Positions 2,971 through 6,686 of a stretch of 12,146 bases of DNA are shown here, piece by piece. The position numbers and the translations under genes were made by a program. The stretch is from the NCBI GenBank assembly GCA_023487965.1, contig JAMDBV010000030.1, positions 1 through 12,146 of the forward strand, read 5' to 3'. Positions within the stretch are counted from its first letter, which is position 1. Each line of letters opens with the position of its first letter. The notes below the pieces were generated by a model. It was not told the origin of the DNA. It did not search any database and worked only from the letters and a program-made list of their open reading frames with translations. Source of the stretch: Patescibacteria group bacterium. Its GTDB lineage: Bacteria > Patescibacteriota > Minisyncoccia > Phycocordibacterales > PALSA-1337.

Positions 2971-3213
2971 ATGGCCAAAATCTGCGAAATAACAAAGAAG
3001 GGGTCGATAACCGGCGGCAGGTACTCGAACAGAACCCGCGCCACGCAGTTCAATCCTTGCGGCAAAATACGCCGTTACCCCAACCTTCAGAAGAAGCGCA
3101 TCTTTGTGCCGGAACTCAACAAAACCGTCATCGTCACCACATCTGCTCGCGGTTTGCGCACCATTGAGAAGAAGGGTGCCTTTCGCGCGCTAAAAGACGC
3201 CGGTATTATATAG
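2971..3213 (+). CDS. rpmB: Large ribosomal subunit protein bL28
   Basis: bL28 is a bacteria-specific 50S protein. The 80-residue product shows the family layout: AKICEITKKGSITGGRYSN at the N-terminus, then RRYPNLQKKRIFVPELNKTV and TTSARGLRTIEKKGAF. Length is normal. No Shine-Dalgarno sequence precedes the ATG; the upstream bases are CCTACACAAACAA. Possible -10 elements are TATGAT (2943-2948) and CATAAT (2951-2956), but no good -35 is spaced for either, so the promoter is unresolved. It is monocistronic on the plus strand and overlaps the convergent MBL-like gene by 8 nt at their 3' ends. Confidence 0.95.
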   Translation: MAKICEITKKGSITGGRYSNRTRATQFNPCGKIRRYPNLQKKRIFVPELNKTVIVTTSARGLRTIEKKGAFRALKDAGII

Positions 3214-4105
3214 TATCTATTCTCAATTGTTTCCCATCCGAAATCGCGCGTACGGCGCTTTTTTCTTTTGTATTGAAGCGATTATTCATAGGCAAATAAT
3301 AAAACGGGTCTTCGGCGCGACTTTTCGTACTCACATTCAGGCCGGTCAATGACTTTGAATAAATGAGAAAATCCGCGTAATATCGCCCCGTCAAATCATC
3401 GGCGATATTGCCCGATGTGGCGCTATTGGCGGTAATAATCACTCTCTTTGCTTTATAACATCTATTTCCATCAAATGTTTTGCCTTTCGCGATATATTTT
3501 TGGATCTTCGTCGTTGCATTACCCAATAATAGGAAATGTGTTTGATCGTAATTTATTTCCGGAATAATCTGTGGGGCGCTCGACTTCGAATACGCGAATT
3601 CTCCTGCGTTTGCAGGAAAAATAATGTTCGCGGAAACATTCTCGTCAAAACTGATCACATCTCCACCTTCCACATATGTGACTTTCGCGCCACTGCCACG
3701 CACGGCGCTTTGGAATGTCTCATATATTTTGTCCGTTGTAGTTGAAATACCGAGAGAATATATCGTGTTCTGTGGCAAAATGATTTCACCGACACGATAA
3801 CGCGATATGATGTCGATGAGACCCGTAATGTTGCGCGGATCAGTATCGGTTGCCATCACCTTGTCTATTCGCCTGGAATAGAATGGCAGAATTCCGGTAA
3901 TATTGCGCAATACGGCACCGTTGGCGCCGGCATTTATAACAATTCGCATATCATTCGGGGTTCTAATAAAGTAAGAGGAGCCGTTTACGTTGAAAGCGTA
4001 GACTTCCAGAACCTTTTCTCGGTATTGCTCGAAATACACATATCCGCCCAATGCGGAAATACCAAACATAGCCAATGCGACAATAATGAAACGTTTTGAT
4101 ATCAT
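3206..4105 (-). CDS. Membrane-anchored ComEC-type MBL-fold protein lacking metal ligands
   Basis: The 299-residue product has an N-terminal transmembrane anchor (about residues 6-24) and then the scaffold of the MBL domain normally fused to ComEC: a VYAFNVNGSSYFIRTPNDM strand pair, INAGANGAVLRNITGILPFYSRRIDKVMATD, and LIDIISRYRVGEIILP. The metal-binding residues are gone. The THPDADH motif of the family is TDTDPRN (86-92), the NVNGSS segment replaces DVGQGD, LLLGNA replaces LLTGDI, and TANSATSG stands where a PHHGS motif is expected. It should therefore not bind zinc or cut nucleic acid in the usual way. comEC lies 700 bp away on the same strand without an MBL domain, so this could be a structural partner for DNA uptake. 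That partnership is inference. It is divergent from sod with only 32 nt between start codons. Confidence 0.8.
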   Translation of the reverse strand: MISKRFIIVALAMFGISALGGYVYFEQYREKVLEVYAFNVNGSSYFIRTPNDMRIVINAGANGAVLRNITGILPFYSRRIDKVMATDTDPRNITGLIDIISRYRVGEIILPQNTIYSLGISTTTDKIYETFQSAVRGSGAKVTYVEGGDVISFDENVSANIIFPANAGEFAYSKSSAPQIIPEINYDQTHFLLLGNATTKIQKYIAKGKTFDGNRCYKAKRVIITANSATSGNIADDLTGRYYADFLIYSKSLTGLNVSTKSRAEDPFYYLPMNNRFNTKEKSAVRAISDGKQLRIDTI

Positions 4106-4137: not shown

Positions 4138-4722
4138 ATGAAAACATTCGAAACAAAAACATTCGACATACCGGAATTGAAAGGTATTTCCAAAAAAAGC
4201 ATTGAGGAACATCTCAAACTTTATTCAGGTTATGTGAAAAACGCCAATAACGTTCTCGCCAAAATCGCAGAATTGAGCAAAGACGCGGAGAATAACGCAT
4301 ACGTTATAGGAGAATTACATCGCCGCTTCGCATTCGAATACAATGGCATGCGCAATCACGAATCATATTTTGCCTCATTCCAAGGTGGCGCCAAAGCGAT
4401 CGATGAGAAGAGTGCGCTCATGGAAGCGATCAAAAAAGAATACGGCTCATTCGATGCATGGCTTTCCTCATTCAAGGGACTGGCCATGACTCGCGGTATT
4501 GGTTGGGCCATGCTCTATTATGACAGGAATGATTCTCGGCTTATTATGTCTTGGGTCGACGAACAGCACCTCGGTCAATTGAACGCCTGCGATATCATTC
4601 TCGGCCTGGATATGTGGGAACATTCTTATGTCGCGGACTACCAACCTTCCGGCAAAAAGCAATATGTCGAGGATTTCTTCGCTAATCTCAATTGGGAAAT
4701 TGTCGAAAAGCGATTTCATTGA
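4138..4722 (+). CDS. Superoxide dismutase, Fe/Mn family
   Basis: The enzyme converts superoxide to oxygen and hydrogen peroxide. All four metal ligands are visible: His25 in SIEEHLKLYSGYV, His74 in MRNHESYF, Asp158 and His162 in LGLDMWEHSY. The stretch after His25 is one residue shorter than in E. coli SodB and resembles the 'HyklYqgYV' subfamily. Gly70, four residues before His74, is Mn-type (Fe enzymes usually have Gln there), and Gln143/His144 sit near the second specificity position, so the metal cannot be fixed; Mn-using or cambialistic is most likely. Length (194) is normal and there is no signal peptide, so it is cytosolic. No Shine-Dalgarno sequence precedes the ATG; TATAGT at 4111-4116 is a possible -10. 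It stands alone on the plus strand. Confidence 0.95.
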   Translation: MKTFETKTFDIPELKGISKKSIEEHLKLYSGYVKNANNVLAKIAELSKDAENNAYVIGELHRRFAFEYNGMRNHESYFASFQGGAKAIDEKSALMEAIKKEYGSFDAWLSSFKGLAMTRGIGWAMLYYDRNDSRLIMSWVDEQHLGQLNACDIILGLDMWEHSYVADYQPSGKKQYVEDFFANLNWEIVEKRFH

Positions 4723-4746
4723 CAAGCCTTGAGACAGCGGTATAAT
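4719..4746 (+). promoter_or_regulatory. Consensus sigma-70-type promoter after sod
   Basis: TTGACA (4719-4724) and TATAAT (4741-4746) are both exact consensus hexamers, 16 nt apart. The -35 overlaps the sod stop codon. No plus-strand protein gene follows for over 4 kb, but an intrinsic terminator lies at 4888-4914, so the predicted product is a short RNA starting near 4753. Confidence 0.75.
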
Positions 4747-4752
4747 CAGCAC

Positions 4753-4914
4753 AGTAGTAACTATATCCGACATCAGAAAGGATCAGCTGAGAGTTCTTCT
4801 CACGAAGTTCAAATGGAGGAAATTCCGCCCTCCCGGATATGTTTGGTGTATTTCTTATAAGTCCTATGACTTATAAGAAAAGCAGAGACGACCTGGTTCA
4901 TGCCGGTCGTTTTT
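4753..4914 (+). ncRNA. Candidate structured RNA, antisense to the comEC 3' end
   Basis: The span from the predicted start (7 nt after the consensus -10) to the terminator T-run is about 162 nt. Visible pairings are: ATATCCG (4763-4769) with CGGATAT (4834-4840), closing a domain; inside it TGAGA/TCTCA (4788-4792, 4798-4802) and GGAGG/CCTCC (4815-4819, 4829-4833); then a perfect 12-bp hairpin (4851-4862 with 4869-4880, 6-nt loop); then the terminator. A 15-codon ORF (ATG at 4813) could be read from it but shows nothing recognisable. From 4809 onward the RNA is complementary to the last 106 nt of the comEC reading frame, so it could act on comEC mRNA or be an independent RNA sharing the DNA. I do not recognise the family. 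Confidence 0.55.
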
Positions 4915-6686
4915 GCTTTCTCAACAACGCATCCCACAGCAGATCTTCCTACCATTTTTATAAATAACAAACTCCCTTCACGTTTTGCAGAATTATCTTC
5001 AACTTTATCAGGCGACATAATGCACTTGTCCAGAGCACAAACTGCCACTTCGAACACATCTCCTCTCCTCTCTATAACATGCTTTAATGCTCGACGGGAT
5101 ATATATACTTTATTGTTCTGCAGGTGGTATCTAATAACAGCATAACGATCGATACGCCCGACAAAGATCATTTTATGGGCATTTTCAATATAATCACCTG
5201 CTGGAACTTCTTTCAATTCGTTCACATTTTTCGAAATAACATACCTAGAGACGATATTATAATGACTGAATATCTTCTTCGCGAGCAAGATGGCAACAAG
5301 CACACCGTAAAAACCGACAACCCACCACATAGAGAACGCTTTTACATTCAAGGCCGCGAATGGTAAACCGGCGAAGAATCTGACAATCGCAAGTTCGTAT
5401 GCGAGCAAAATATGCGATGTCCAACCAAACAATACCGACAATGGCATGAATACGAAACCGAACATTCCGGCCAAAAATACTGAGAGCATCGTTAGTGGGA
5501 TGAAAGGCAGAACGATAATATTGACGATCACCCCCACGATCGACAATTGCCCCATCATATAGAGTATGTATGGCGCCACGAATACCTGTGTCGCAAACGT
5601 CGCCGCCACCGTACTCCTTATGCCGACCTTCTCCGGAAGAAAAGACAATCTTCGCTCTATTGGCGACGCCAATGCCACCAAACCCACGGTCGCCAAGAAT
5701 GAAAGCTGGAACGAGGGATCATGGAAAAGTATTATAGGATCGGCGATTATCATGAGAAGTCCGGCAAATGCCAGCGCCCGCGCCACATTGTAATCTCGAC
5801 GGATCAATGTCGCGAAAAGCGCAACACATGCCATGACACAAGAGCGCACAACCGTTGCACCGCCACCGACCATAACTCCAAACAAGACAATGCCGATCGC
5901 GCCACAGAATATACCCCAAACGCGCGGCAATCTAGACAATAATTTCATCAGCGCTTCCCCGACAACGGTAATATTAAACCCCGATAGTACGACTATATGT
6001 ATGAGCCCGACAACCCTAAATTGATCCAACAATTGAGCGCCTAGCGCGCTCTTCTCACCCACTACGAGCCCGGCCGCCAAGGCCGCATGAGGCTCACCTA
6101 GTACGGCATTGAGATTGGCGACAAAACGATTCTTCACCTTGTATAGATACAATGTCATCGAGTCGACGAATCCTGTTTCGCCGCCGGCATCGGCCACCTT
6201 TGCCTCATCAATAATCGCACTGCGTATCTCGTAGAATATATCGTCTTTGGCCAGATAACCGGAATAATCGAATTTCCTGCCATCGTCACTCGAAAAATCA
6301 TATGGTTTCAATAATTTTCCATAGAATGTTACCGCCGATCCGAAAGCGTATTTGGGATATAACTTGGTTTTGACGCGAATATTGATATTATCCGCGCAGT
6401 TCGCATGATTACCGACGATACCGCCAGACTCACGACCGGCAACCACATTGTCTCCGAGCGTTCCAAGATCGGCCGTTATAACATTCTCGGCATGAATAAC
6501 CAATACTTGACCATTATCTTTGCTTTCCGGCTCCGAAATCACCGTGCCATATCCTTGGATATCTCGGTTAAGACAAGTACCGATATCCGGCGCGCGAATG
6601 TATATGGTATGCCAAAGACGCAAGATGGCAAAAGCCACCAAAACCGTCCAAAATATGGCCGTCTTCGATGAGTACTTGATTCTCAC
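4809..6686 (-). CDS. comEC: ComEC/Rec2-type DNA uptake channel with PBECR-like C-terminal domain
   Basis: ComEC is the inner-membrane channel that takes single-stranded DNA into the cytoplasm. The 625-residue product has an N-terminal membrane segment (11-28), a soluble DUF4131/OB-like region to about 160 ending in KFDYSGYLAKDDIFYEI, and the competence domain with GLVVGEKSAL (206-215), IVVLSGFNITVV (231-242) and FQLSFLATVGLV (326-337). Multiple membrane segments run to about residue 471. The usual MBL domain is absent. Instead, residues 505-615 form a soluble domain with VYISRRALKHVIERR (His536, Arg540), IMSPDKV (Pro559, Asp560), SLLFIKMVG and NQVVSAFLIS. This order resembles PBECR-type (barnase-EndoU-colicin-RelE-like) nuclease domains, an inference from pattern only. 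The start is GTG with a -10-like TAAAAT 6 nt upstream. An out-of-frame ATG lies 2 nt before it. Confidence 0.9.
   Translation of the reverse strand: MRIKYSSKTAIFWTVLVAFAILRLWHTIYIRAPDIGTCLNRDIQGYGTVISEPESKDNGQVLVIHAENVITADLGTLGDNVVAGRESGGIVGNHANCADNINIRVKTKLYPKYAFGSAVTFYGKLLKPYDFSSDDGRKFDYSGYLAKDDIFYEIRSAIIDEAKVADAGGETGFVDSMTLYLYKVKNRFVANLNAVLGEPHAALAAGLVVGEKSALGAQLLDQFRVVGLIHIVVLSGFNITVVGEALMKLLSRLPRVWGIFCGAIGIVLFGVMVGGGATVVRSCVMACVALFATLIRRDYNVARALAFAGLLMIIADPIILFHDPSFQLSFLATVGLVALASPIERRLSFLPEKVGIRSTVAATFATQVFVAPYILYMMGQLSIVGVIVNIIVLPFIPLTMLSVFLAGMFGFVFMPLSVLFGWTSHILLAYELAIVRFFAGLPFAALNVKAFSMWWVVGFYGVLVAILLAKKIFSHYNIVSRYVISKNVNELKEVPAGDYIENAHKMIFVGRIDRYAVIRYHLQNNKVYISRRALKHVIERRGDVFEVAVCALDKCIMSPDKVEDNSAKREGSLLFIKMVGRSAVGCVVEKAKTTGMNQVVSAFLISHRTYKKYTKHIREGGISSI
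4888..4914 (+). terminator. Intrinsic terminator of the candidate RNA
   Basis: ACGACC (4888-4893) and GG (4895-4896) pair with CC (4903-4904) and GGTCGT (4905-4910) around a 6-nt loop, with one bulged T. The descending arm runs straight into five T residues (4910-4914). It is well formed in the plus direction, the opposite of comEC, and no plus-strand protein gene ends here. Confidence 0.65.

Follow-up and report, generated by a model that had tools for sequence, protein, structure and literature searches.

A small structured RNA lying tail-to-tail with a PBECR3-like predicted ribonuclease gene in Patescibacteria: a possible antidote that phages may copy

Our analysis of a window of 12,146 nucleotides (the whole of the DNA stretch analysed, contig JAMDBV010000030.1 of the Patescibacteria group bacterium assembly GCA_023487965.1, forward strand) revealed a small structured RNA which, in scattered genomes of very small bacteria, is found by sequence to lie tail-to-tail with a gene predicted to encode an RNA-cutting protein of the PBECR type. 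The RNA of the window is almost certainly a real gene that had previously not been listed, and its pairing with PBECR is very probably functional. From the sequences, the RNA could serve as an antidote, and viruses may carry copies of it for that purpose. In our preferred reading, to which we give a probability of about 0.52, the RNA would be an antitoxin-like partner of a BECR-type RNase, and its phage copies possible mimics.

A sequence-only reading of the window had proposed an RNA gene complete with promoter, stems and terminator, and this was borne out by a 12/12 promoter, a TTTTT terminator and a fold z score of −4.6 (Table 1). Both promoter hexamers are indeed exact with 16-nt spacing, and the site is the sole 12/12 promoter-like site listed in a scan of the window, the runners-up being 10/12. 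The 5′ end of the RNA would lie about 7 nt past the −10 hexamer and the 3′ end within the T run of the terminator; the RNA is about 160 nt long in the window. On the plus strand, 4754–4914 folds with −53 kcal/mol versus −35.5 ± 3.8 for shuffled sequences, none of 200 being as good. Promoter-like sites of at least 10/12 were found within 90 nt upstream of 14 of the 27 host RNA copies, the rate in control stretches of these loci being 2.3%. Rfam matches to MIR171_2, CRISPR-DR19, HSR-omega_1, snoR64a, rli42 and folP in 4650–5000 (E ≤ 10) were rejected, all being far under their cut-offs.

Table 1. Features of the RNA gene and its neighbours, in positions of the window.
Feature	Positions	Strand	Support or remark
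Fe/Mn superoxide dismutase gene sod, upstream of the RNA	4138..4722	+	PF02777, E = 6.4e-23
Promoter TTGACA (4719-4724), 16 nt, TATAAT (4741-4746)	4719..4746	+	12/12; overlaps the sod stop codon
RNA gene	4753..4914	+	promoter, terminator, fold z −4.6, covariance model
Conserved core of the RNA family	4762..4842	+	R2 (window left out of the model): E = 2.9e-6 in 46.7 kb, 3.1e-5 in own genome
P1, 5′ strand (partner 4834-4841)	4762..4769	+	8 bp including one U-G; covaries across 33 copies
P2 hairpin, 4 bp (4773-4776/4787-4790), loop forms one pseudoknot side	4773..4790	+	family helix 2
Pseudoknot GGA (partner TCC 4824-4826 in the P4 loop)	4780..4782	+	pair counts
P3, predicted short hairpin CTTC/GAAG	4796..4807	+	fold prediction; length varies within the family
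P4 hairpin GGAGG/CCTCC (4815-4819/4829-4833)	4815..4833	+	family helix 6, 97.5% of cells paired
P5, 13-bp hairpin (4851-4863/4868-4880), opposite PBECR codons FLIS..TYKK	4851..4880	+	double changes in G254
Intrinsic terminator	4885..4914	+	stem, then TTTTT 4910-4914
PBECR3-like predicted endoribonuclease domain	4809..5246	−	in frame with comEC; PF18812, E = 6.7e-5, domain alone
ComEC, PBECR-like domain at C-terminus, no intervening stop	4809..6686	−	Competence PF03772, E = 1.6e-50

In the window, sod and the single long frame on the minus strand are convergent. The Pfam Competence match within the ComEC frame ends at residue 469 of 625, and GTG and TTG codons at the ComEC/PBECR junction are possible separate starts for the PBECR-like domain. 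The RNA had been described as antisense to comEC, which is true of the open frame, but the overlapped part is the PBECR3-like C-terminal domain. Most relatives have comEC and sod side by side in convergent orientation, frequently less than 150 bases apart as judged from the alignment ends, so that the RNA-PBECR unit is an optional insert at that junction; the comEC fusion in the window genome would probably be a local accident of the position of the unit. The named records of the sod search included Taylorbacteria, Nomurabacteria, Zambryskibacteria and other Paceibacterota/Patescibacteria. Beyond sod, 3206–4105 on the minus strand is a gene without a Pfam match that, on inspection by eye, looks like the metallo-beta-lactamase portion of ComEC; a homologue of it lies on the far side of sod in many related loci. 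A toxin-antitoxin-like pair was also seen at 1137–2019 on the minus strand, with an AbiEii nucleotidyltransferase (PF08843, E = 1.1e-18) behind a DUF6922 gene (PF21956, E = 8.2e-17).

Our data set comprised 34 genomes of the genus of the window, while the class search covered 383 genomes and the phylum search 379. Upon blastn of the region over 60 relatives, only G015 (72% over 104 nt) was found besides the genome itself. There, the RNA follows an L28 gene (PF00830) and lies opposite the 3′ end of a frame matching the C-terminus of the window "comEC" frame, and sod sits on a different contig. A covariance model (R1) of six loci, L119–L124 (genomes G154, G207, G229, G309, G329, and G377), matched G031 (E = 1.1e-5), G028 (1.4e-4), G015 (1.5e-3) and later G023, and gave no match in the window at E ≤ 1. 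Over the 379 phylum genomes R1 gave nine matches, one of which (G207) was already in the model, and over 97 loci of the sod search, many of them doubles, it matched only at the G023 and G028 loci, plus one chance hit (E = 0.76). The second model (R2) consists of 21 copies with the window left out, including those of G154, G207, G229, G329, G015, G031, and G023; the alignment of R1 matches used for it omits loci L119, L120, and L126, which R1 had matched in antisense. R2 found the RNA in 6 of the 34 genus genomes and in 15 of the 383 class genomes, where the window was missed under stricter filters. A search of Rfam and of a model built from relatives had been proposed as a check on the gene; no Rfam family reached its gathering score on the window RNA, and R2 recovered the core. 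Two class matches, at L217 and L218, are weak (E = 2.5e-4 and 9.1e-4), and the latter is inside an AlwI-like frame and probably false. Sphingobium plasmid matches to L122 (E = 0.1) were rejected; L142 has neither an R1 nor an R2 match.

Every helix of the RNA covaries across 33 copies, the loop-loop pseudoknot included. With the pseudoknot, 92.5% of the cells are paired; both-side changes occur in 33 of the 39 pairs (24.6 in shuffles) and in 279 cells (81 shuffled, at most 73 in slid controls), counts that lean towards the model because the alignment was fitted to it. When the first six copies were aligned with MAFFT, both-side changes were seen in 18 of the 39 pairs, versus 7.5 in shuffles. 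For these six, RNAalifold and pair counts supported P1, P3, and P4, and the pseudoknot was paired in 100% of the cells, with no double change in P2 or the pseudoknot. G-U cells outnumber A-C cells in the alignment by 94 to 28, which marks the strand of the RNA. By these alignments, the RNA structure is under selection on that strand. The letters of the pseudoknot are GGC with GCC or GUC in most copies, AGC/GCU in L134, and GGA/UCC in the window and L216. It is incompletely aligned in L041, L031, L037, L032, and L213, and by eye it can be read as CGGG/CCCG in L041, CGCC/GGCG in L213, and CGCG/CGCG in L032.

Comparison of the window with G015 and G254 showed that promoter-like sites (10/12 and 9/12, respectively), P1, the pseudoknot, the 3′ hairpin and the terminator recur in both, and compensatory changes of the kind that the sequence-only reading had said to look for are present among them. 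The loss of these elements in relatives, which that reading had named as counting against the RNA gene, is not seen in these two genomes. In P1, pair 4768/4835 is C-G in the window and T-A in both G015 and G254, only the inner four pairs being alignable in all three. P5 has double changes in G254 at 4855/4876 and 4860/4871, and one mismatch in each genome (4856/4875 in G015, 4863/4868 in G254). The terminator stem has double changes at 4893/4905 (G254) and 4896/4903 (G015 and G254), and mismatches at 4890/4908 (G254) and 4891/4907 (G015 and G254). Pair 4773/4790 of P2 is T-A in the window and C-G in G015, and the pseudoknot pair 4782/4824 is A-T in the window and G254 but C-G in 27 of the 33 copies. 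P4 is invariant within this branch, and the stretch 4847–4849 is fully paired in the window only. Common to the three is the further hairpin with its terminator at near-equal distance from P1 (T runs 67–68 nt on), and the fold of this 3′ part against shuffles gave z scores of −7.6 (window, 4843–4914 alone), −6.3 (G015) and −5.1 (G254). The stems as first read needed some revision: the perfect 12-bp hairpin is there with a length of 13 bp, and the 7-bp closing stem is 8 bp long with one U-G. As for the two 5-bp stems, GGAGG/CCTCC is a family-wide helix. The P2 hairpin and the pseudoknot had been missed.

A structured sequence convergent to the 3′ end of PBECR was found at L119–L124 and, in the genus, in G015 (L117) and G031 (L118). 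The PBECR profile matched 5 of the 34 genus genomes, all among the six that bear the RNA, and 12 of the 383 class genomes; nine of these matches are strong (E < 1e-12), all with the RNA, and three are weak, without it. G156, G375, and G284, with weak PBECR matches only (E from 2.3e-6 to 9.6e-4), gave no RNA match with R2, and G207 has a second, weak PBECR match elsewhere in its genome. Strong PBECR matches are thus present in 13 genomes (nine of the class including that of the window, and four more of the genus), and the RNA is convergent in all 13. This count is partly circular, as six of the 13 supplied R1 and seven went into R2; Neither model drew on G267, G252, G027, or the window. R1 brought up eight new genomes; seven of them have a PBECR frame overlapped convergently by the RNA, and the other (G455) has a DUF3800 gene in place of PBECR.

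The RNA was also found beside a deleted, frameshifted or truncated PBECR in three cases. The G028 genome gave no PBECR match, and its comEC frame stops within the RNA; judged by eye, the tail of this frame looks like the N-terminal part of PBECR. In G252, also counted among the 13 paired genomes, PBECR is frameshifted, possibly through a sequencing error. PBECR of G254 is recognisable by a C-terminal piece only (E = 7.9e-5). In the class search, 6 of the 15 RNA matches, two of them weak (E = 2.5e-4 and 9e-4), lack PBECR and have other neighbours. The neighbours of PBECR-less copies are DUF3800 (L134, L214), NYN (L212, L217), DUF5615 (L212), HipA-like (L213), and Fic (L215) genes. L213 has a weaker second RNA copy. 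At L217 (1501–1968, minus strand), three same-strand RNA copies, one of them weak (E = 0.0022), stand behind the NYN-domain gene. At L134 (1501–2463), one DUF3800 gene is flanked by two DUF3800-IX RNAs (RF02968, 58.6 and 56.3 bits) together with a copy of the window-family RNA.

PBECR domains are predicted to be metal-independent RNases with His and Thr/Ser in the active site, as described in the part of PMC5512222 available, where no RNA partner is named for them. The domain of the window reaches 23.2 bits with PF18812, under the Pfam gathering score of 30, but it aligns with the proteins of L120 (37.3 bits) and L128 (34.2), which pass it. An alignment of 18 PBECR-like proteins showed an LKH motif with invariant K and H, and a Thr/Ser further on. 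H56 is invariant, and the window domain keeps this K and H and has a Ser at the VVSAF position. Given its sub-threshold Pfam score and its place in the ComEC frame, the window domain may not work as a free toxin in this genome. The PBECR relatives numbered 145 at E ≤ 1e-3, and the names among the 120 listed were "bacterium" or Patescibacteria groups. Search of the 383 class genomes with the window domain gave eight matches, the window itself included; a match in G434 (L125), which the PBECR profile does not recover, was judged spurious and excluded from the counts. A sequence search of PDB found no credible relative (best E = 0.1), PADLOC, PHROGs and NCBIfam yielded matches at chance level and no named function otherwise, and the single-sequence protein search gave nothing at E ≤ 0.001. 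None of 8 and 64 pattern stretches for PBECR in viral contigs was confirmed, and tblastn found no match for L122 in phages or for L120 in plasmids. In L120, L121, and L126–L130, the PBECR protein has an LLWSW...PSS-like tail, which corresponds to P4 and P1 of the RNA read in antisense. The L124 protein is without the LLWSW tail common in other PBECRs and its coding region has 0 nt of overlap with the RNA core, so that the tail elsewhere is probably imposed by the RNA. This protein "motif" thus probably reflects an RNA constraint.

An exact pattern search of viral sequences found the RNA in seven viral contigs. Six of these were compared with R1 and all matched (E from 2.8e-13 to 4.6e-6); the seventh, L138, looks like L135. 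No PBECR match was found within 1.5 kb of the RNA in the seven contigs, and none of six phage copies has a promoter-like site of at least 10/12 within 90 nt upstream. In L141, the RNA is located between two tRNA-Leu genes of a 20-tRNA array, the match overlapping their ends by a few bases; in L135 its last base directly precedes a tRNA-Gly, in L139 it starts 100 nt past a tRNA-Gly, and in L137 it is about 410 nt from one. No tRNA gene was detected in L136 or L140. A looser pattern gave 70 viral stretches, seven of them known; the 63 new ones had no R1 match at E ≤ 0.01 (the best being L178 with 0.017 and L147 with 0.049) and were treated as chance. The membership of L147, which R2 matched at E = 5.9e-4, is doubtful.

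RF02924, the skipping-rope RNA, is an sRNA family of Rfam, and we know of no function for it. Skipping-rope and DUF3800 RNAs were reportedly described by Weinberg et al. in 2017. Both RF02924 and the window RNA have P1, P2 with a GAAA-containing loop, P3, a GAUG stretch, P4, and a pseudoknot, with the same helix order and similar loop letters in the consensus, whereas the loop letters of RF02924 and of the PBECR-linked RNA differ (CGGCUCUA, ACGAUG). The pseudoknot of the skipping-rope RNA is named pk_1 in a figure legend on Rfam 14 (PMC7779021, seen as an excerpt); the likeness is one of architecture, drawn from the RF02924 consensus and the pair counts. RF02924 gave no match at E ≤ 10 on 4650–5000 of the window, nor at eight PBECR loci or on six phage RNA copies. 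The third copy of L217 (1886–1968) passes it with 36.9 bits against a cut-off of 36.7 and is matched by R2 too. The description of the RNA as previously undescribed therefore holds in that no Rfam family matches at gathering score, but it must be qualified by this architecture and by the one passing copy. Two true RF02924 copies were found in phages with the consensus (L226 and L227, 68 bits each). R2 recognised that of the satellite phage Javan99 (L226) at the same place (E = 0.0041) and gave no match in L227, and the window RNA is therefore treated as a divergent branch of the skipping-rope architecture, outside RF02924. None of seven proteins tested near these two canonical copies is PBECR. 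The RF02924 search over 112 class genomes gave 0 matches and also 0 in 14 controls, which makes it uninformative. A pattern hit at L225 was rejected as a skipping-rope RNA, as neither RF02924 nor R2 matched it. The literature passages retrieved named no function for skipping-rope RNA and contained no link between this RNA and PBECR, and our literature search found nothing joining Patescibacteria or CPR with an antitoxin. Skipping-rope motifs are given as 1% of the ncRNAs in phage fragments in an excerpt of PMC8501573.

The type III toxin-antitoxin systems ToxIN, CptIN, and TenpIN likewise combine a small structured RNA with an endoribonuclease, which is predicted here, and a pseudoknot is shared with ToxIN. 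They differ in that their RNA is repeated in tandem ahead of the toxin gene and shares its transcript, whereas the window and the PBECR loci have one convergent copy, and in their toxins, the protein here being PBECR3-like. Pfam search of the PBECR-type proteins gave no ToxN or Abi_2 match, only PBECR3/PBECR2 and weak unrelated ones. In the excerpt seen of PMC12373285, RCd22, which carries the Rfam motif RF03085, binds its toxin as an RNA antitoxin in the RCd22/AbiF system. Unlike the PBECR RNases of polyvalent proteins, those found here are mostly separate genes, ComEC-fused in the window, and have an RNA partner. The DUF3800-associated RNAs RF02968 and RF02969 are likewise structured RNAs beside a gene, but the window RNA family matches neither.

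In our reading, the small structured RNA has its own promoter, folds into P1-P2-P3-P4 with a pseudoknot between the P2 and P4 loops, and makes up a two-gene unit together with the convergent gene of a PBECR3-like, predicted metal-independent ribonuclease. PBECR would be a toxin-like RNase, and the folded RNA would restrain it by direct binding in trans, like the type III RNA antitoxins; we regard the antitoxin mechanism as an even bet. The phage copies, without a clear promoter or a nearby PBECR, could be mimics neutralising the host nuclease, as expanded pseudo-ToxI repeats carried by a phage neutralise ToxN (PMC3475682, as excerpted). In the same excerpt, one pseudo-ToxI repeat by itself had no antitoxic effect in an over-expression assay, so a copy in a phage is not necessarily an active mimic. 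That PBECR is a toxic RNase, that the RNA inhibits it by binding and that phages mimic the RNA are what we infer from sequence here. The convergent, mostly single-copy layout, the RNA matches without PBECR and the weak-PBECR genomes without RNA stand against the antitoxin reading.

The same pairing evidence would also fit if the RNA were a cofactor or substrate, which PBECR binds as a guide, scaffold or activator or matures by cutting, and the copies near DUF3800, NYN, and DUF5615 genes look as if the RNA partners several nuclease kinds. The presence of the RNA in G028, G252, and G254, whose PBECR is missing, frameshifted or reduced to a remnant, and the phage copies that have no PBECR nearby, speak against this, and we consider it unlikely. 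The position of some phage copies next to tRNA genes and the other neighbours of the two RF02924 phage copies examined could point instead to a phage-derived, trans-acting sRNA of the skipping-rope type, for example with a role in translation or with tRNA, PBECR being a recurrent neighbour of no functional meaning. This is difficult to reconcile with the single convergent geometry in 13 of the 13 strong PBECR cases, and we hold it to be quite unlikely.

Silencing of the overlapping comEC or PBECR mRNA by base pairing, in the manner of a type I system, might be expected because, in 18 of the 19 loci measured, the RNA core overlaps the PBECR frame at its 3′ end by 34 to 90 nt, and the sequence-only reading had put forward a cis-antisense regulator of DNA uptake as one possibility. 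But a comEC match is present in only 4 of the 27 fetched RNA loci (each 1.9 to 8.6 kb), it is the PBECR-like 3′ end that lies opposite, L124 has no overlap at all, the seven phage contigs offer no PBECR match to silence within 1.5 kb, and both the fold and the loop letters are conserved across loci. From these data, the window RNA is not mainly a comEC regulator, and cis-antisense action in general is improbable. A DNA-level element at the 3′ ends of cassette genes (a recombination or transposition site, attC-like) that merely folds well would agree with the presence or absence at the comEC-sod junction and with the varied small neighbours. The G-U excess over A-C cells, the promoter-like sites upstream of host copies, the terminator in the branch of the window and the covariation of the pseudoknot all speak against it, making this reading very improbable.

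Extended to the whole group, the antitoxin-like reading would describe a new RNA-protein toxin-antitoxin system, in which a pseudoknotted, skipping-rope-type RNA neutralises a BECR-fold ribonuclease whose gene lies tail-to-tail with it, other members partner DUF3800, NYN, or PIN proteins, and phages use the RNA alone, in some cases near tRNA genes, as counter-defence. We put this forward tentatively, at somewhat less than even odds; if true, it would give skipping-rope RNAs a function. Should the RNA be an antitoxin, a further toxin fold would join those countered by RNA, RNA antitoxins would reach the candidate phyla radiation, and the copies in phages would be candidate anti-defence RNAs. 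With a predicted ribonuclease as its constant genomic partner, this RNA branch lends itself to a direct test of function in E. coli.

Other structured RNAs were seen near some of the copies. In the Streptococcus satellite phage Javan99 (L226, 2854–3877), an sRNA, SpF41, which is tRNA-like by eye, is followed by the skipping-rope RNA and then by a Gp49-like and HTH gene pair. At L216 (2584–2704, minus strand), a LOOT RNA (RF03000, 86 bits) is found near the window-type RNA copy of G254.
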